DNA from: Amyelois transitella
Taxonomy: Eukaryota > Arthropoda > Insecta > Lepidoptera > Pyralidae
Length of the DNA stretch: 64,000 bases
Direction of reading: 5' to 3'
Assembly (NCBI RefSeq): GCF_032362555.1
Contig: NC_083516.1
Coordinates: 2,877,001-2,941,000, forward strand
The notes below the pieces were generated by a model, which worked only from the letters and a program-made list of their open reading frames with translations, did not search any database and was not told the origin of the DNA. Of the stretch, positions 6,101-55,799 are shown piece by piece. Both the position numbers and the translations under genes were made by a program. Each line of letters begins with the position of its first letter. Within the stretch, counting starts at the first letter, position 1.

Positions 6101-9100
6101 TAACGTCAACATCACAATTATCCAAACTATGAATAGAAATATGGATGAGAGAATACTTTGTTATGATTAATTGATTTGTACGAAATTTTAACAATAAAAA
6201 ATTATAATGCAGGCCTAAACCACATAAAGAACCTACATGTCAAATTTCAAACTCTTGATGTAAATGCCTTTCAGCATTTATCATTATCCAAAACAGTTTT
6301 ATAGGTTATACCGATGTACCTGCGCCGGAGTCTATCTTATATTTGTATGGCGCGAAAATATAACTACAAATGTTATTCTCCGTTTCAGTTGTCATGGCCG
6401 TCACCGCAAAGAGGTGGAGGATACGAGTTCGCCACCACCGAGCAGTTAGCTAAACATATCGGTAAGTCTCTTATTGCTATACAAGCGGCCCGCCCCGGCT
6501 TTGCACGGATAACATTTATAGATTTAAACCTTTCTCAGTCCGGATTTTGTAGGACCTAATTAAAATGTTGGAAAGAGGGTTTTATGCCCCCGTAGCATGG
6601 CACGCGCTATAAAAACGGCATCGCGCGTGTCATGCTACGGGAAAAGAAAACCCATTTACCATCATTTTAAACAGGTGCAAAATCCGTCCACAACTTTCCG
6701 ACATTAGCGCATACATACAGACTTACAAATTATAGGGAACCTTATAATATGTAGTGATAGTGACTGCCCGCATGGAATGCAAGTTGCATGTATCTGCGTA
6801 TTCCAATAGAATAGATGACACAGTTACTGTGCAAAGAACTACTGATAAGCAGCAATTATGAAATACTTAGACACAGCCTATCAGTTGTGCAATAAGTGAC
6901 AATTGAAAGTGAAACTTGAACTACTTAAAGCGAAGGCCGGTTTCATTGCGCAAAATGTTCTGCAAAGTATTTTTGTTATAACTACATTTTTACATAGATT
7001 CCATGCCATTTCTTTATAATACCTATAATCTAATAATAGAATTTTCTCTTTATTTCCCAAAAAATTGTGAAAGTGATGTCTCAAATTAGTGACAAAGTTG
7101 TAAAAAGGGTCACCGAGGTCAGAATCGGAATCACATTTTTGGACTTGCAAATCTTGGATTGGACCTTTCCAATACTAGATTATGATCAGACGCCAGAAAG
7201 AGAGGAAATAACGCCAGGATGATGATGACGCTGCGTGTAAAACATATTCCTCATTTGCTATAGGTTAATGTATTTGTTACGTTTCGTTAACGTTACGTTC
7301 GTTAAAGATTCGATTAACGTTATGCGTAATTTAACATTCTTCTTTCTCCTGGCGCCTGGAGCTGAGGATATAACCGGGACTAACCCAGGAGAGGAGCACA
7401 GGTTGCGCATTTACAAAATGCAAAATAATCATTATTCAAAGAAAACCTCTTATCTGAGTCAATATAATAATATACAACCTGTAACACACTGGCCAAAAAA
7501 TTTAACATATAAATCGTTCCTGAAAAAAAAAATTTTTGTCTATGTTCAGATGACCTGCCGCTAACAGCAGCTATATCGTTACCTCTGTACGCGCTGTTGA
7601 GAGAGAAATTGGAAAGTCATCTGAAGGTGGTACTGAGGCAGGCCACCAGTGTGTCCGACGTCATGTGTTCAAACCCCAGCCTTTTAGAAGCTTATAGGTA
7701 AGAAAACATATTTTTCTTTTGACTTTAAAAAAAGAAGGTTTTCAATTCGTCCATATTTTTTTTATATTATATACCGCATATCTCCGGTATTTGTTATCCG
7801 ATTTTAAAAATATTTTTTTTTCATTTAAAGGAGCAATGTGTTCGATTGGTCCCATAGAAATTTGGTTGAGGTCAGGTCATAAATCAAAAATCATTTATTT
7901 TAGGTACCACTATTCGCCTGGGTACGACGTATTGTCAATTTAATTTTTAATTAAGTATTTCTAGATTTTTAGTGTTCTTTTTTTGAAGTCGATAAAATTT
8001 TTTTTTAATCTGAATTTATTGTTCAATTGCCCGCTTCTCGTCCTCGGGGTAGTTCCCGGATCAATTCATAAAGGAATCATTGGTATTAAATATGTATATA
8101 ACTTTCTTTCAGTTCAATGGTAGAATGTTTGGCTCAGAACGGCAACAAAATAATAGACATGGTGCTCATCAACATGCGAAGAACTCTGCTGCAGAACTGT
8201 CGTGAGGTGCTCGAAATGCCGCCTCTACATGCCACTTTTATGCATAAGGTATTCTATTCCTCTCCCTTTCACTTTCTCCTGCTCTCCTCTAATGTGTTCC
8301 ATTCACAAGTCAGTCTCTCTCTCTCTCATCTGTGCGTGTTCCTTGTTGCACCTTCCACAGAATTGTTTCGAGGCCCGGGGTTCGCCTTTCGACTTTTTTC
8401 TCTCCACTTGGTCGGGTTTTCGGCGTCCTCGGATTTCAGTCCATGGGGTCGGGTATCATCTTGATCTTGGTCTTGTCAATGGTGGTTCCGCCCGCGTTAA
8501 AAGAAAATTCTCTTCACTCTTTATAACCATGTAAGGAACTGACACCAAATTTAAAATCTCAAGGCTCTAGGTCTAGATGCACTGAACATTGTAATGTCAG
8601 TCAGTCAGTCTTTTTCCACTTTTAGCGCAGGTTGCATCCTCACCACTCTGGAGAGGAGCCCGGGGTCTTTGACCATGGATCCTGGATTGGGTGAGCCAGG
8701 TTTTTACACGAAGCGACTCCCATCTGACCTAAGCAACCTCGCGATGTTTTCCCTCCCCGAAGAGCATCGGTTAGCACTCAAACTAATGTTCATAACCATA
8801 ATGTTCTTTCCAGATAGGATCGATATCATTCGTAGGCAAATTTGAGACGGACACGGGATGGGTGAAGAACTTGTCGACTGTGAACAGGATCAGTGACGTC
8901 AGCGTGAGCACCTCAGACCCCATGAAGAGCAGTTTCCGCGCCACGCTCAGGATAAAGGACCTTCAGGTGAGGACAACGATAGAACCTATCTACAATATTA
9001 CCACTTTTGTAAGTTACGCCTGAAGAAGTCGTAATTTTTGTATGGCGCGAAAATATTTGGGCGATTGAGCCTATCAGAGCACGCCATTTGCTATTGCCAC

Positions 9101-11319
9101 CCGCGTACTGAACTGCTCGCTATTGGGTTTTAGGTTTAATGTACATGTAATAAAGTTGTTTTTTTATTCGGTTTGATTCGGCGGTAAGTCACGGTATTCT
9201 GCGCCGTCGATTATTACCGATGCGATTTATAAAATTGGAATTGGTAGTACTGTACTATCCCTATACGAGCATTCCCGTGAATAACCGCCCCACGCCCTAG
9301 TAGAATAAAGTGTGTTACAGTTTGTATGACACTTCCCTGTTCTGAATCATTCTGATGTTCTGATGGGGTTAAAAGTCAACATCGGGTCCTGACATTTACT
9401 GACGTGGCCACGTTTGAGGGCTGGTTTCTTCAACCCACTCTGAGGGTGGGCCACAGCCCACTGATGTAATGTTGACTGTTTAGGTGGGCTACGACTACCG
9501 CATCAAGGCGATGGGCGTGTCGTGCGGTGGGCGGCTGGTGGTCACGTTTGTGGGCTGTCTTCATCTCACTCTGAGGGTGGGCCACAGCCCACTGATGTAA
9601 TGTTGACTGTTTAGGTGGGCTACGACGAATACCGCATCAAGGCCATGGGCGTGTCGTGCGGTGGGCGGCTGGTGGCCACGTTTGTGGGCTGTCTTCATCT
9701 CTCTCTCAGGGTGGGCCACAGCCCACTGATGCAATGTTGACTGTTTAGGTGGGCTACGACGACTACCGCATCAAGGCGATGGGCGTGTCGTGCGGTGGGC
9801 GGCTGGTGGCCACGTTTGTGATCTATTTTCTTCATCTCACTCTGAGGGTGGGCCAAAGCCCACTGATGTAATGTTGACTGTTTAGGTGGGTTACGACGAC
9901 TACCGCATCAAGGCGATGGGTGTGTCGTGCGGTGGGCGGCTGGTGGTCATGTTTGTGGGCTGTCTTCATCTCACTCTGAGGGTGGGCCACAGCCCACTAA
10001 TGTAATGTTGACTGTTTAGGTGGGCTACGACGACTACCGCATCAAGGCGATGGGCGTGTCGTGCGGTGGGCGGCTGGTGGCCACGTTTGTGGGCTGTCTT
10101 CATCTCACTCTGAGGGTGGGCCACAGCCCACTGATGTAATGTTGACTGTTTAGGTGGGCTACGACGACTACCGCATCAAGGCGATGGGCGTGTCGTGCGG
10201 TGGGCGGCTGGTGGCCACACTGGTGGGCTGCTCGCTACATCTGGCGATGAGCGTGGGCCTGGCGCGGTGGGAACCCTACGCGCAGCTCACTGACCTACGG
10301 ATAGACAGGATGGGGTGAGCATTTATATGGTTGAATTTGACCTCCTAGTGTTGTTGACTTTTTCAGCAGTGTCGCCAGTGTTTTTTATTATAGTATTTTA
10401 CTGAGCGTTGGTGGTCGAATAGTTAAGGCACCGGTTCGAATCACACCGCGGTCATGTACCAATGACTTTTTTTGAGTTACATTAGTTTGAATACTAATAT
10501 AACCTACGCTTACGGTAAGGGAAAACAACGTGAAGAATCCTGCACATTAAGGCAACGGATGTATAACCGTGATCGATCCAATACGGGTTGCAAAGGTCAG
10601 ATGGGAGTCACTTCGTGTAAAAAACTGACTCACCCACTGCAAGATCCATGGTCAAGGGCTTACCCCGAGCTTCTCCAGAACGGTGAGGATGCAACTGGAA
10701 CTAAAGCCAGAAGAAGAAGTTATCATCATATTATATATTTCTAGTTCAGATATTGTATTAATTAATTAGTTTCTTCCGGCGTCAAAAAAAAGTATTAAGG
10801 AATCATCTTTTATATTTATTTCGCTTCATGATTCTTCTTATATATCGCAACTTCGGTGCAATAAAGTCACAACAACTCTTTTTTAAATTTTACAGGAGAA
10901 GACTTTTATTTTATTTTTTCTCATGTATTTGTTCATTTCTGGATTACTATTTATAGTAGGTTTAACATCAGTGCAATATTAATTGTTTACTTTCGCAAAT
11001 GTTTTTTTTTCCCCAAGTAAAGGTATGATTCAAAAACAATTTGGCAAACTTAGTTCGTTTTTGCAATTTTGGCTATCTGTGACTTTGTTTCACCCAAGGA
11101 GCGATATATTAAGAAGACAATAACGTTCCGCACAGCGCCATGGACCTCCACGTGACGGGGCTGGGCCCGCTGAGCGGCGCGGCGCCGCTGGCGGCCGCGT
11201 GGCTGCGCGGCGCCGCGCTGGCCGCCGCCGCGCCCGCCGCCGCCTCACAGCTACAGCACGAGGCGCGCATCGCTTTACAGGAGTTGCCGCTGTGGGACAT
11301 ACTGCACGCCAAGCAGTGA
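3178..11319 (+). CDS. Double-domain TULIP protein, group-7-allergen-like/JHBP-like
   Basis: Eleven exons join without a frame break: 3178-3267, 3590-3687, 4435-4620, 5446-5585, 6213-6259, 6389-6461, 7550-7697, 8113-8248, 8814-8966, 10154-10314 and 11136-11319 (1416 nt, 471 residues). An in-frame TGA at 3142-3144 precedes the ATG, so this start is the first available. Each half has a helix followed by amphipathic beta strands, as in TULIP-fold lipid binders. The C-terminal half (about 262-445), with VGYDDYRIKAMGVSCGG, DLRIDRMG and DLHVTGLGPLSG, recalls the arthropod group 7 allergen family; this is recognition from memory. Family members are usually secreted and about 200-250 residues long, whereas this one is about twice as long and shows no signal peptide. 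Its substrate is probably a lipid or hydrophobic ligand (inference). Exon 4 ends at 5585, not at the earlier gtagag, because only that choice keeps the next exon open. The C-terminus is Ala-rich and GC-rich. Confidence 0.8.
3755..3810 (+). repeat. SINE family B tail fragment
   Basis: The block 'gggaccctgcaagggataaa' followed by 'gatgtgattatatgt' matches the 3' part of the SINE at 30378-30590. Only the tail is present. It sits in intron 2 of the TULIP-like gene. Confidence 0.5.
5695..5970. repeat. Interspersed repeat, family R
   Basis: Second copy of the repeat at 1515-1785, in the same orientation and well preserved over the whole length. It lies in the intron after exon 4 of the TULIP-like gene. 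Short open frames inside it are not genes. Confidence 0.7.
6535..6695. mobile_element. Foldback MITE-like palindrome
   Basis: Two arms of about 75 bases (6535-6608 and 6622-6695) are reverse complements with mismatches and small gaps, separated by about 13 bases. The inner arms contain 'cccgtagcatg' and its complement plus 'cacgcgcg'; the outer arms contain 'ggattttg' and 'caaaatcc'. The structure fits a foldback-type MITE. It lies in the intron after exon 6 of the TULIP-like gene. Confidence 0.65.
7735..7925. repeat. Possible lepidopteran interspersed repeat
   Basis: The run beginning 'gaaggttttcaattcgtcca' resembles a repeat I know from many lepidopteran genomes. No second copy is recognised in this window, so confidence is low. 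It lies in the intron after exon 7 of the TULIP-like gene. Confidence 0.3.
8630..8735 (-). repeat. SINE family A fragment
   Basis: Reverse complement of part of the SINE at 10396-10735, sharing 'ccatggatc', 'ggtgagcc' and 'cgactcccatctgacc'. It sits just upstream of exon 9 of the TULIP-like gene. Confidence 0.6.
8993..9090 (-). repeat. Interspersed repeat, family M
   Basis: Inverted copy of the family M element: 'attaccacttttgtaagtta' at one end and 'tatggcgcgaaaatattt' at the other. It lies in the intron before the tandem array. Confidence 0.5.
9413..10219 (+). repeat. Six-copy tandem array of splice acceptor plus partial exon
   Basis: A unit of about 134 bases repeats six times. Each unit has intron sequence ending 'gttgactgtttag', followed by about 66 bases of exon coding for VGYDDYRIKAMGVSCGG and RLVAT. 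Acceptor-exon boundaries fall at 9484, 9615, 9749, 9886, 10020 and 10154 (spacings 131, 134, 137, 134, 134). Only the last copy continues into the full exon with donor gtgagc at 10315. In copies 1 to 5 the reading frame runs on and reaches a TAA (in 'gatgtaatg' or its variants), with no good donor. Copy 1 lacks one GAC codon, copy 2 has GAA in place of that GAC, and copy 3 has 'gatgcaatg' in place of 'gatgtaatg'. High identity between copies points to a recent expansion or ongoing homogenisation. Confidence 0.95.
10396..10735 (+). mobile_element. tRNA-related SINE (family A)
   Basis: The head carries a tRNA-like region with 'gtggtcgaatagttaaggc' and a B-box-like 'ggttcgaatc'. The body holds 'ggtcagatgggagtc' and 'gccagaagaagaag'. 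Partial copies occur at 8630-8735 (inverted), 30640-30870 and 32200-32270. It lies in the last intron of the TULIP-like gene. Confidence 0.7.
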
Positions 11320-11810: not shown

Positions 11811-12696
11811 CTATGACACATACAACTGGTGGTTCTACACGTCAAAATTCAGAAGGAAACCGAAATATTGCGAGAGGTGGAGCATTTATCGTGGAGATTT
11901 AGATGATAATAACAGCGCAGTTTTTGCGCATCGGGACTCCGTCGTGGCAAGCAAGAGACAAGAAAGTGCAGTCTGGCTAGTAGTTTTTATATTCGAATTC
12001 ATGGGGTTCACATGATTTCATACATTGTTTTTATTTTTTTTATTGTGTTCTATTATCACCAACGAATAGAAATTGTGTGTACAGTTTATTTGGTCCCGTG
12101 TCCGACACTTATGCTGGGTCGTCAATGTAGGTACATTTGGGGTGTCCCTATTCAGTACATATCGTTTCTCTTAGTTAATTTATAATAACTTGCCTCAGAC
12201 AGACTGTTGTGTGTAGCTTTATGTTTGACTTTGTATATGTTTGTTTTTTTTTTTATTTTTTTTTTTATTTGAATTAAGATATATTTTTTGACTTTTTGTG
12301 TATCTTTTTCATCGTTCATCTTTCTTGAAACTTTTTAAGATGTACTACTTTATATGAGATATAATTCCCTGCTGTAATTCCGCTTATATCGTTATTATTA
12401 TACCGTTGATCAAGACAGCTTTCTAATATCTGAGAATATTATGTTGTGTGTTTGATGATAGCTTTTTGCGCATTGGACATTGACCTCTATCTATGCACAG
12501 GCTGTTCCATACAAATGACAACTAATTTTGTGTGGCATATGAAGCGCCACTGCAATCATTGCGATTGTCCGGAGAACTAATTTTGACGTTCATTGCAAAT
12601 GTCTACCGTAAGAGATTGTGACACCGGCGAATGTTTTTTTAAAAATCTTTATTTTATTTTGTGAAATGTTATTCATTTGTAGAAATTGAGCTAAAT

Positions 12697-27063: not shown

Positions 27064-28530
27064 TTTATTTAACAAAATAGTGTCATACAGTTATTTAAAA
27101 TAACAGACATAAATGATAATTTGTAATACAACCTAGCATCCTAATTTTAAACCAGGTACTTTTCATAAATTTATCCCACTAATAAAAAAAAGTATAAGGA
27201 CAAAACAATGACGAATGCAGCACAAAGGAATGTTGGCTAGCTAGTGGTCAATCACACATTCTGTCGTGTGCTCGCCGCTGCGCTGGTCCATGCTGTTAGA
27301 GCCAGTATAATTATAGAGCACCTAATAATAATAATAAATTAAATTAAGAAACCGTGATCGTGAACCGTTGTTGTAAATATAAATAAACTTAAGCCATTAA
27401 TCAAATTGCTACATAGGCGTGTGATAAGTTTTATATAAATTGTTCACGGCATTATTTAATTTTGTGCGCCCTACTAAAGTCAAAAGAAAATTCATTTTAC
27501 TACCGCTTAAGTAGACATTTAATTCAGTTTTAGCTTGGAACAGCGCGCGGCCGCAAGTGGCACCTCTATGCAAGTTCTCACAAGTATTCCTCCTTAAAAC
27601 GAACCAATGCCCAACATTCTCGCTGACAACTCAATAATACTGTTAGCAAAATTATGATAAAACCCTTTTGTCAAATGTGTGTTACTTGTAATTCACGACT
27701 ACTCAAAGGTACACACTCCACAAAAGATACTAATATTACTTTATCAGCGATTCAGTCAAAAAAACACATTGAATAGTTTGTTCACAAACACCAGTTTGGA
27801 TGTCAATAATATACCTACAAGCCTATCTTCTACACATTGAGAGAATATTTGTGATATTGTTGCAATTGGACACACAATGATCTACACTAAATTTACTTTG
27901 GCTTCACTGACTGGGGTCAATTAGTACCTTTGTGGTTTACATCGTTTAATATTTTGAACTAAAATGTGGGAACTAAATGCAAACCGAACTCCAATAGTAA
28001 CATATTTAGAATAAAGACCTAAACAACATTTACAATTCAATGAGGGGAATGTCTACTAATTTAAAGTAAAAATTACAAAACAACCATTTTCGTGCAGACC
28101 AAAACAAAAAAGCGAGGATTAAATCAAAAGCACGTCCATCTGGAATAACTTAATAGTAATACTTAAAAATACACGTTTTAAGAATACCTACTGGGTCCCA
28201 CTTTAAATTATAATAATTTTAACATTAAATTAACGTAGTTTGTAACGCCAACATTCACTAAGTGCGATATTACCGTGGGGTTACATAAAAAGATCGCGTC
28301 CTCTAATCGAAAGGCGGTACGAATCGTGTACGCCCCTCTCTATGTAATCACACGGCAGCCGGACGCTGTCTCCGAGCGGCGCACCACACCGACGAGCCGC
28401 GGGGCGGCGATTCAAAAACCGATCTACAACCGTACAATTTTTGGTGGGAAAGAGGCGCCGCCGCGCGGCGGAGATTTGCGAGCTCGCGCTCAAATTTCGA
28501 ATGCGATTCGTCGAGTGCTGGCGGCGGTCA
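27064..28530 (-). other. Probable 3' UTR of IP6K
   Basis: AT-rich stretch following the IP6K stop codon. The complement of AATAAA lies at 27064-27069 and is the furthest canonical signal I would assign to the gene. A GC-rich patch at 28320-28525 directly follows the stop; its open frames on both strands are composition artefacts. Confidence 0.4.
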
Positions 28531-31500
28531 TTAACTGTAGGGCTGCGGCGGGAGGATCTCGGTGAGCAGCCGCTTGAGGCTGTCGATGCCGGTGAGGAAG
28601 CCGCAGTCGGGCCCGTGGTGCGGCGTGGCGGTGGCCAGCGGCGACTCGGCCGCGGCGCCCGCGAACGCCGTGTGCGCGAAGTCGATCATGCGGATGTCCA
28701 CGCGCTCGGCCTCGGCGGGCCGCTCGCGCCAGGACTCGCTGCTGGCGGAGGAGTACGCCATCCAGCTGTCGGCGGAGTCGGGGCTGGGCGGCTGCGGGCG
28801 CGGGCTGCCGCCGGCCAGCTCGCCGTCCTCGTAGCCGCCCATGGTCTCCTCCGAGTGCGGCTGGAAGGCGGGGCGGCGCTCGATCTCGTGGTGCAGCGTG
28901 GACATGTCGAAGTGCTCGGCGTCGGCCGCGAGGTCGGCGGAGCTGCTGGACGCGTCGCCGTCGTACTCCTGGCCGCTGCTCGCCGGCGGGGAGCTCGTGT
29001 CGCCTTCGTACACTATAAGTAATGAACTGGAAAAGAAAAAATACACGTCAATCGATTTGTTAGTACTCATATTCAGTGTTTTAACCCTCGGTCATATTTC
29101 TGGTTTTAACCGATCTACAACTAACGGACATAAACCACTACATTTTCGTTCGCTGACGCATTATTCTTTTAAGAAAATTACCTAACTCTTAAAAATCACT
29201 TTTTCTTCTTTGTGATAACTCGACCTTGTACGTTATGCAACATTGAATAATTTTATGACTTAACCATCGCCTTTATCGCGTTAGGTACGTACGTGATGTT
29301 TTCACAAACGTTAATATTTTATCGGTTGTAAAATCACAATAATTACAAAAGAAAATATGACACATCTCCCAATTTATATAACCAGGTTATCGTTCATAAA
29401 GAACTATTAAAAACCAATATCATTTATTATAATGTGGTAGGTTAGGTTTGATAAAGTTCTGAGCGCTGACCCCGTAAACTTACATCATAATTCAAAAGGT
29501 GATTCTTTGTCATAACGCAATGTTATAGATTATAAATTGGTCAAAAATAGAAAGAAGAGCGCGTCAATAGAATCTACAACTACTTTCACGTTCGGAACTG
29601 TTATCCAGTGGTTTGGCCTTTCTTATTTCAAAACTGTTTTTGAAATTCGATTTCGAAAGTGACCGAATTGATTTTTTCGTCATCGGGTTAGCTTTGTAAC
29701 GGCCGATTTGAAGGAAATTCGACCATAGATATCGGTGTAAAATCCTCCATCATCCTCCTGGCGCTGACATCATCAACTTTAATAAGTTAATACTTAATTT
29801 ATAAAATAACCTATTGGTCTGCTTGGAAATAGTTCGTTGAGGTCTCACGACCCGACGTACGACGCACACGCAGCCACAAAGAATTCGCGCAGCCTTTCCC
29901 CTGACAGCACGCTATATAATAATACCTATGTATAAAAGTTGGCCTTCTTCGCAGGCCAACGTTTAATGCTAGCAACAGTGTTGGTTGAGGTGGCTTTATT
30001 TTATGGAGTAGAACGCCTTAACAAAAAGGTCGTTTAAGCTATGAGTGGGTTGGAATAGTACAGACACTCCATCTTCTGCAAAAATGAAAACCCATATAGA
30101 CAAACTCACCAAGAATAGAATCTGTAGTTGGTCTGCTTGGCGATGGCGCGCCGCAGCCCGTCCAGGTCGCGCAGCACGCGGCGCACCGCGCGCACGCGCA
30201 GCCCGCCGCCGCCCGCGAAGAACTCGCGCAGCGCGTCGCGCAGCCCCGCCTCCGACAGCGCGCGCCCCCAGTACTTGTCGCGGCGCACGCACGCGCCCGT
30301 CTCCGGCACGTATATCTGGTAATTGCAACAAATAATTTGTAAGTGCCGTGTGCTTGCCGGCAATTAGAATAGAACCATTCTTTTTCATGGATGTCGTAAA
30401 AGGCGACTAAGGGATCGGCTTCCAAACTTAAGATTCCTCTTGTAGGCGCTGGGCTAACAACCTGTCACTATTTGATTATCAATTCCAACATGAAGCCATA
30501 CAACTTATCGTAGCCTTTCAGTCTTTTCGAGAATGTTGGCCCTATCTGTCCCGCAAGGGATATAGACGTGACTTTATGTACGTGAATATTAGTCATCTTA
30601 CAGACATACAGAGTATCACATCGTAGATTAAGGTACCCGACTAAAAAGCGTCAGTAATTCGCATCGGCACAAGTGCAAAAGCTACTGCGGCCACGTACCA
30701 TGGACTCTTATGAACATCCTGAGGAAACCTGCCCATTCAGGATGTGGCGTAATCATGATTCCCACTAAAGGTCGCGGAGGTCAGATGGGAGTCGCTTCGA
30801 ATAATACCTAACTTGACTTATCCTCTATAAAGAGAGGATGTGACCGCAATTAAAGCCAGGAGATAAGAAGGCCGTTGAATTATTATTTTATCTAATACAA
30901 TGACTGACAATTCAAAGTTCCAAAAATTATATTATTATAATTGAAGATGCCTCAATTTGTGATAAGGTAAAACTTTTAATATGTCATTGTCAACAATTTA
31001 ACGCAATAGCGATTTAATCACACAGATGACACTGACCGAAATAATCTACGAAGCACGAGCGCCCGCCTAACTACATAATAATTGTCTGTATAAACTACAC
31101 AGATTAGCACTCTGCGACCTGTTAACACATAAACCTATTATTATTTACTTACCCGTTTGACAACATTGTGCCACGTGTATTGGTAAACTTGATGAGTTAT
31201 ACAATTTGTAGATACGTGTTTCTCAAATTATATGGGTTGTTGCAAGTCATTGCTGTTACGTTAAAAATTGCGTATAAATAATTTATATTAGGTATAGTGA
31301 AGGGGAGTTAAGTTCTTGATGACTGGCTGAGAATACTGGCGCCTCATTCAATTACGTTGACGAGGCATATCTCTTTCGCCTCTCTCTCTCTGACTCCGGT
31401 TTTGACAGGGTTGTCAGTGTTGTGTGTGACGGTACTTGGAAAAGATGGAATATATTGCCTATGCCAGTTGGTAAAGTTTCCATCGCGCCGACGGTGCCAA

Positions 31501-54211: not shown

Positions 54212-55470
54212 ATAGATAGATAGATAGATAAAACTCTTTATTGCACCAAATGAGTAAAACATACAAAACAACACAAAGCAGACATATGTATATGGTACAA
54301 AGGCGGACTTATCGCTAAAGCAATCTCTTCCAGTCAACCTTTGGGTGGAAGGAAATCAAACAGGAGATTGGCGTTGGCGCAGAGCAAGAAAAATAAATGT
54401 TTGAACATAATAAAATACATACATAATATATATCTATATATAATATATACAAAAACGCATAAATACATAAAAATAACATATACTTAGGATAGAGTAGAAA
54501 GATAATGAGACCTAACGAGATTTTTGAAACTATTAATAGTCTGGGCTTTCCTGATATCGACAGGGAGAGCATTCCATAGACGGACAGCTTGTACAGTAAA
54601 AGAGTGGGAGTAAAAATTGGTGTTGGATGTCGGTACTCTTAGTCGTAGAGTAAACGTGCTACGCAGACTGCGTGTGGCGCCTTGGGCATCGCTATAAAAA
54701 TTGAAGCGCTCCTTTAAATAAGATGGAGAAAACGGATCAAATAAGACCGAATAGAGCATTGTCACAATGTGCAAGTTGCGACGAAGTCGGATCGGGAGCC
54801 ACTTCAGTTGCGATCGAAATGAAGAAACATGGTCGTATTTACGAAGCCCAAATATGAATCGAATGGATAGATTTTGAAGACGCTCTAATTTGTTTAATTG
54901 TTCTTCAGTGACATCCAGATAACAAGTATCAGCGTAATCAAGAAGAGGGAGGAGAAGGGATTGTGACAGCGCAATTTTGGTGTCATAAGGCAGAAAATTA
55001 CGAAGCTTTCTGAGTGAGCTGAAAGCAACAAAAACTTTCCTGCTCACATCATTAATGTGAGGCGTCCAAGACAAAGTTTTGTCAAATATCAGACCCAAAT
55101 TTTTCACCTTGTCACTGAAAGGAATAACCACATTGTTGAATATAAGGGACGGTATATAATTCCAGTCTATACGGGAAACAAAATAAGGGCTGCCGATTAT
55201 AATTGCCTGCGTTTTGGAAGGATTAACTTTTATGCCAAAAGATCTGCTCCAGTCTGATATGCTCATCAAATCGTTGTTAATAGTCGCAATTGCAGAGCGC
55301 AAACCATCAGCGGAGGAATGACAATAAATTTGAAGATCGTCTGCATAAAGGTGGTAGGAAGACCGAAGGTTATCAGAGATACGGTTAATAAAAAGCGCGA
55401 ACAATAAAGGAGAGAGAACACCGCCTTGAGGTACCCCAGCCGAGATGTGACACCATGAAATACGAACTAA
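54212..55470 (-). mobile_element. 5'-truncated non-LTR retrotransposon (reverse transcriptase part)
   Basis: The minus strand is open from about 55470 to 54484, encoding the C-terminal half of a reverse transcriptase: AGVPQGGVLSPLLFALFINR, the catalytic box YHLYADDLQIY, SDWSRSFGIKVNPSKTQAII, KNLGLIFDKTLSW (thumb), then the C-terminal domain ending AVRLWNALPVDIRKA and a stop. The 3' UTR ends in (GATA)n on the plus strand at 54212-54232. The N-terminal endonuclease and first part of the RT are missing, as expected for 5' truncation during target-primed reverse transcription. The frame is intact, so the insertion is fairly young. The class is CR1/jockey-like; I cannot name the clade with confidence. 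Confidence 0.9.
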
Positions 55471-55799
55471 CCAAATAACAACATTTAATTAATCTAAAAA
55501 AAATAATCCTAAAAACACTAAACAAATGAAAGTCAATACTAAACAAAACACACTTAGACATGTCATTAATAAAGCTTATAATAATGGTAAATAGAATCGT
55601 CATTAGGTCATTGACGGTCCGAAGGACTATCTGTATTTTATAAACATAAATAAATCAACACTAGATTAAACAATTATTATTAATAAAATTATTATAAGGT
55701 ATTTATTCATTACAATTTATCTATAAAGTAAAACAAAAGCGGATATGAATGAAAATATAGCAAATCTTATCACTGAATATGAATAACAGTTGGTTGATA

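Follow-up and report, generated by a model that had tools for sequence, protein, structure and literature searches.

Six near-identical 3' splice sites in tandem ahead of one exon: a candidate proto-splice-site minisatellite in Amyelois transitella

Ahead of the penultimate coding exon of a gene in Amyelois transitella lies a tandem array in which all six units present a 3' splice site followed by the same exon head. The explanation we judge best, and consider rather probable, is a tolerated minisatellite built on a proto-splice site, in which exon definition favors the last acceptor and re-splicing or NMD clears mistakes. We infer each splicing step, and the history of the array, from the sequence, the reading frames, and complementarity to U1. 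The array is probably harmless, because either the last copy could be used or the extra copies could be exactly spliced out.

Within the window, the whole 64,000-nt stretch of DNA that was analyzed, TRF reports the array (Table 1) at a period of 134 (131–137), with 6.1 copies, 93% matches, and a score of 1432; outside the array, no row in the window exceeds 79. Six occurrences of the string GACTGTTTAG/GTGGG (slashes mark splice junctions) were counted across the window, and they place the exon starts at 9484, 9615, 9749, 9886, 10020, and 10154, with spacings of 131, 134, 137, 134, and 134. These results bear out the first-pass annotation, which had described six tandem copies of an acceptor plus partial exon, with five extra acceptors ahead of the real exon. 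Pairwise, the units differ by 2–8%. Among the best candidates scored in the species' own 327-Mb assembly (33 contigs), seven matches to the unit were obtained at E values up to 0.001, every one at the array locus and none outside it. The exon-like tail of the unit likewise gave six matches at E values up to 10, all at the array locus, and no source for it was found elsewhere among the best candidates scored. A scan of viral contigs returned four pattern matches and no relatives. A background sample of 200 kb, drawn from 20 contigs as 20 stretches of 10 kb, yielded three TRF arrays with a period of at least 50, at 2.9, 2.1, and 2.0 copies; with background arrays of at most 2.9 copies in this small sample, a six-copy array looks uncommon in the genome.

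Table 1. Features of the array and of the exons around it (positions within the window)
Feature	Positions	Strand	Basis
Upstream exon (8th in hand-drawn model), donor CAG/GTGAGG	8814..8966	+	In-frame join, translation
Tandem array	9404..10230	+	TRF; repeat search; genome matches only at locus
Left edge: partial unit of exon-like tail and first acceptor, no recognizable exon head ahead	9404..9483	+	
Decoy 1, 131 nt, 3-nt deletion in head, AG/GT at both ends	9484..9614	+	
Decoy 2, 134 nt	9615..9748	+	
Decoy 3, 137 nt, tail 3 nt longer	9749..9885	+	
Decoy 4, 134 nt, begins GTGGGT	9886..10019	+	
Decoy 5, 134 nt, first 65 nt as in true exon	10020..10153	+	
True penultimate coding exon, 161 nt, donor GGG/GTGAGC	10154..10314	+	Joined frame, Pfam domain over joined exons
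Last coding exon including stop	11136..11319	+	In-frame join, single stop at end

The host gene probably encodes a lipid-binding-type protein. Joining 8113–8248, 8814–8966, 10154–10314, and 11136–11319 gives one open frame of 210 codons with a terminal stop, and the joined exons match the Pfam family Grp7_allergen (PF16984) at 37.8 bits against a gathering cut-off of 21 (E = 2.7e-9, profile positions 1–145 of 180). The upstream half of the gene, hand-joined from 3178 with less certain boundaries, gave a sub-threshold JHBP match (18 bits vs 29.2). JHBP, takeout, and Group 7 allergen proteins belong to the tubular lipid-binding (TULIP) group. A search of solved structures returned 14 weak matches (best E = 0.041), none named for the Group 7 allergen family. 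The gene model was drawn by hand and has 10 coding exons and nine donors; in it the array exon is the ninth, which makes the earlier label of exon 10 insecure. Upstream, the intron that reaches the true exon (8967–10153) spans 1187 nt, and one ending at decoy 1 would span 517 nt; the downstream intron is 821 nt.

Each unit is ordered as an exon-like tail, a GTGGGC/GCCCAC hairpin, a branch-site-like CTGAT, TTTAG, and the exon head. The motif CTGAT (CTAAT before 10020), with its A at −20, resembles the branch-site consensus. The amplified coding segment had been put at 66 bases. A shared head stands, with 65 nt identical between decoy 5 and the true exon; the resemblance, however, carries on as far as roughly nt 106. 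Past an interval of 4 nt, the tail of decoy 5 aligns to the exon over 37 columns, 27 of which match and 7 mismatch, with a single 3-nt gap, a score equaled in 0 of 2000 dinucleotide shuffles and at 0 of 3000 places in window positions 12000–63000, although GTGGGC words recurring in the region raise such scores. For the leftmost tail the resemblance is weaker, its score being reached by 10 of 2000 shuffles and at 0 of 3000 places. The likeliest source of the tail, from these alignments, would be an earlier, partial duplication of the exon that preceded the later burst. When the introns were searched for further decayed copies, the alignments of the exon were matched by 81 (8967–9403), 256 (10315–11135), and 8 (8249–8813) of 500 shuffles each, and those of unit R6, in the same order, by 233, 285, and 330 of 500. 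The candidate exon copy in 8249–8813 was set aside, being a gapped alignment within a stretch that also forms an inverted repeat.

Predicted RNA structure did not separate the true acceptor from the decoys. The fold of the whole array beats 20 of 20 shuffles (z = −4.27), and in short folds a GGTGGGC/GCCCACT hairpin lies upstream at five of the six acceptors; at 9749, GCCCAC pairs with the exon start instead. The hairpin was rejected as a mark of the true acceptor and is non-discriminating, since that acceptor carries the same hairpin as the decoys.

AG/GT stands at every unit boundary, within TTTAG/GTGGG at six of six. The decoys had been described as having no good donor; on the contrary, each unit carries AG/GTGGGC at its own start (GTGGGT in decoy 4) and AGG/GTGGGC closing its exon-like part. 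Were the upstream exon ligated to a decoy, CAG/GTGGGC would be restored as a donor; its calculated U1 duplex is −10.3 kcal/mol, stronger than eight of the nine donors of the hand model, on an energy scale that over-rewards G.U pairs. On the same scale the upstream donor reaches −11.6, the true exon donor −9.3, and the decoy tail donor −8.2 kcal/mol. Of 760 GT sites on the plus strand between 1 and 13000, a fraction of 0.001 pair with U1 as well as the regenerated donor. Under the usual consensus, GTGGGC is a weaker donor. If donors competed through U1 pairing alone, the regenerated donor (−10.3) would win over the true exon's own (−9.3) and the exon would be skipped, which shifts the frame. 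Something besides U1 pairing must therefore keep the regenerated donor at the true exon start silent.

These features suggest how the array may have arisen and how it may be spliced. A segment with the proto-splice site TTTAG/GTGGGC would have been tandemly duplicated and then multiplied in one burst, the unit straddling the 3' splice site; with AG/GT at each end, the unit has the makings of an intron of exactly its own length. Exon definition would be the main route, since the last acceptor is the only one whose distance to the donor at 10315 (161 nt) matches a normal exon. Were an earlier acceptor chosen, the junction would read CAG/GTGGGC and could be spliced to the next acceptor, a step that would take out exactly one unit, so that whole units would be deleted and the message left unchanged. 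Because each boundary is AG/GT and the donor is recreated, a decoy junction could be removed without trace, and the same mRNA can, by its sequence, result whichever acceptor goes first. When read through, all five decoys reach a stop, 38–41 codons past the junction and 175–714 nt ahead of the last junction, and NMD of unrescued products would be expected. The first-pass annotation had every decoy reaching a stop if used, which holds for read-through but not for re-splicing. Its account of the anatomy, NMD-prone read-through products included, stands; of the possible outcomes it offered use of the last acceptor or truncated or NMD-prone isoforms that could tune expression, and it missed the third route, in which the decoy junction recreates a donor. 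The sequence analysis yielded no evidence of a tuning role. The array would persist because correct mRNA can still be made.

We place exon definition first, with re-splicing as a rescue, by analogy with human genes. There, long flanking introns (>250 nt) are described as favoring those splice sites that lie nearest each other across the exon (PMC9225289, as outlined there). Both introns flanking the array exon exceed 250 nt, so this exon-centric rule, which derives from human data, points to the last acceptor. The same source also cites the classical intron-centric rule, by which the upstream acceptor wins; here that would mean the first acceptor. According to the account in PMC8605326, the strength of a donor does not settle the matter by itself: exonic elements and earlier splicing also count, and suppression of regenerated donors by the EJC has been reported for mammals, with a proposal that it extends to flies. 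By analogy, suppression of this kind would spare the true exon yet hinder the re-splicing of decoys. As it cuts both ways, re-splicing is allowed by the anatomy, not predicted by it.

Differences among the copies are informative about their history. R6 equals the consensus; R1, R2, R3, and R5 carry three substitutions each and R4 six, R1 and R4 additionally carry 3-nt indels, and one substitution is common to R2 and R5. This near star-like pattern fits a single burst of copying followed by independent change of ~2% per copy, and we infer such a burst from the sequences. The copy lengths of 131, 134, and 137 differ by multiples of three, although these represent about three events only. At a butterfly mutation rate near 3e-9 per site per generation, the burst would, as a rough figure, date back some millions of generations; if that is right, the gene has long tolerated the array. 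As a test of selection on the splice core, the finding of 0 substitutions in 20 columns across six copies was non-significant (preset core, P = 0.055; longest run, P = 0.67).

Beyond the favored reading, we consider unlikely, though worth stating, a self-erasing splice-site minisatellite: the AG/GT-bounded copies would be exact introns, copy number would be free to vary without a change to the mRNA, and the spliceosome would ratchet through five closely packed zero-length exons in one ordinary-sized intron. A little more doubtful still is recursive splicing as the main route, in which the first-made acceptor would be used first and AG/GT ratchet steps would release lariats of 131–137 nt. Acceptor and donor are juxtaposed at all five decoys, and the regenerated donor pairs better with U1 than the decoy tail donor does (−10.3 vs −8.2), an order described as general for ratchet points in PMC8605326 as outlined. 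Known fly ratchet points, however, are for the most part features of long introns, and they are conserved (same source), whereas the intron here is of ordinary length; the donor has G at +4; and competition alone would skip the true exon, as set out above.

That the decoys act as poison acceptors tuning output via NMD appears improbable. The positions of all five read-through stops ahead of the last junction would suit such a role, but the few changes among the copies show no sign of selection for decoy use, and both exon definition and re-splicing oppose it. We give slightly less credence to the decoys as in-frame cassette exons yielding protein isoforms with a 31–33-residue insertion. The AGG/GTGGGC donors at 9577, 9711, 9848, 9982, and 10116 do end stop-free, in-frame exons of 93, 96, 99, 96, and 96 nt; each cassette joined to the true exon leaves one stop only, at the end; the copies differ in length by 3 nt throughout; and the tail resembles the true exon. 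Against this, the tail donor lies only 38 nt from the next acceptor, an intron probably too short, so one copy would have to be skipped; the insertion would sit within the domain; and the copy changes are too few for a selection test. An assembly artefact, which the first-pass annotation had named as its refutation, is very improbable: assemblies are prone to error at tandem repeats, but the copies have private differences (2–8%) in a chromosome-scale assembly, no match is reported elsewhere in the genome, about 830 bp fits within one long read, and contig C12 spans 11.36 Mb.

Among known systems, the array appears from its sequence to be a tandem duplication across an intron–exon boundary, a kind already known, with more copies and with the boundary itself as the candidate donor. 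The closest case is the potato RdRp gene, in which a duplication across an intron–exon boundary gave a new intron (PMC4974935, as outlined there). In that account the duplicated block likewise comprises a putative branch site, an acceptor, and the exon start, the copies differ, and the acceptor of the new intron comes from the downstream copy, as in our reading of the array. In the potato gene there is a single extra copy, the splicing is backed by RNA, and the donor, GTAAG, sits in the former exon piece (PMC4974935, same account), whereas the array has five extra copies, has its candidate donor at the AG/GT boundary, and is known here from sequence alone.

The array consists of near-identical tandem copies containing an AG/GT proto-splice site, the arrangement looked for in intron gain by tandem duplication. 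The AGGT duplication model dates to Rogers 1989 (cited in PMC4974935), and AG/GY proto-splice-site duplications are described in Drosophila (PMC2891723, in outline). In these accounts a duplicated AG/GT yields an intron matching the duplication in length, as it would here; the duplications are described as exonic (PMC4974935, PMC2891723), whereas the array unit includes an existing acceptor. Ratchet points share the juxtaposition of acceptor and donor, found here at six of six sites, and the competition of a regenerated donor with a downstream one (PMC8605326, in outline); here the regenerated donor exceeds the decoy tail donor, as judged by U1 pairing only. In flies, known ratchet points are found for the most part in long introns and show good conservation (same outline), whereas here the five candidates are spaced 131–137 nt apart in a 1187-nt intron with a GTGGGC/T donor. 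We keep the array out of the ratchet-point class, because the motif is present but the long-intron setting is absent and the array is known from its sequence. Human paralogs with internal tandem repeats that alter gene structure (PMC2812944) likewise involve minisatellite expansion inside genes, going by the outline. No acceptor array of this kind was found in the literature among the matches listed (titles and abstract beginnings, with most subscription papers outside).

Other features were observed in the window. Two copies of one element, inverted relative to each other, form a repeat that pairs 8669–8738 with 10586–10655 (70 nt, 89% complementary), and a second pair joins 8609–8654 with 10672–10717 (46 nt, 76%). 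Their arms sit in the introns flanking exons 8814–8966 and 10154–10314; pairing in the pre-mRNA, as the complementarity permits, could favor circular RNA or bring the exons together. On the minus strand, 54484–55488 holds a 334-codon open frame that by eye reads like a non-LTR retrotransposon reverse transcriptase. The GC-richer stretch at 28281–29091 has long overlapping open frames on both strands and is perhaps an exon of another gene.

Lining up six near-identical acceptors ahead of a single donor, the array amounts to a natural competition experiment. Junction counts would separate exon definition, first-come pairing, and recursive stepping in the choice of a 3' splice site. The array also bears on whether tandem duplication makes introns neutral at birth; the origin of introns by tandem duplication is a model that is often cited, yet the cases that prove it are few (PMC4974935, as outlined). 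It thus offers a natural test case for both splice-site choice and the origin of new introns.
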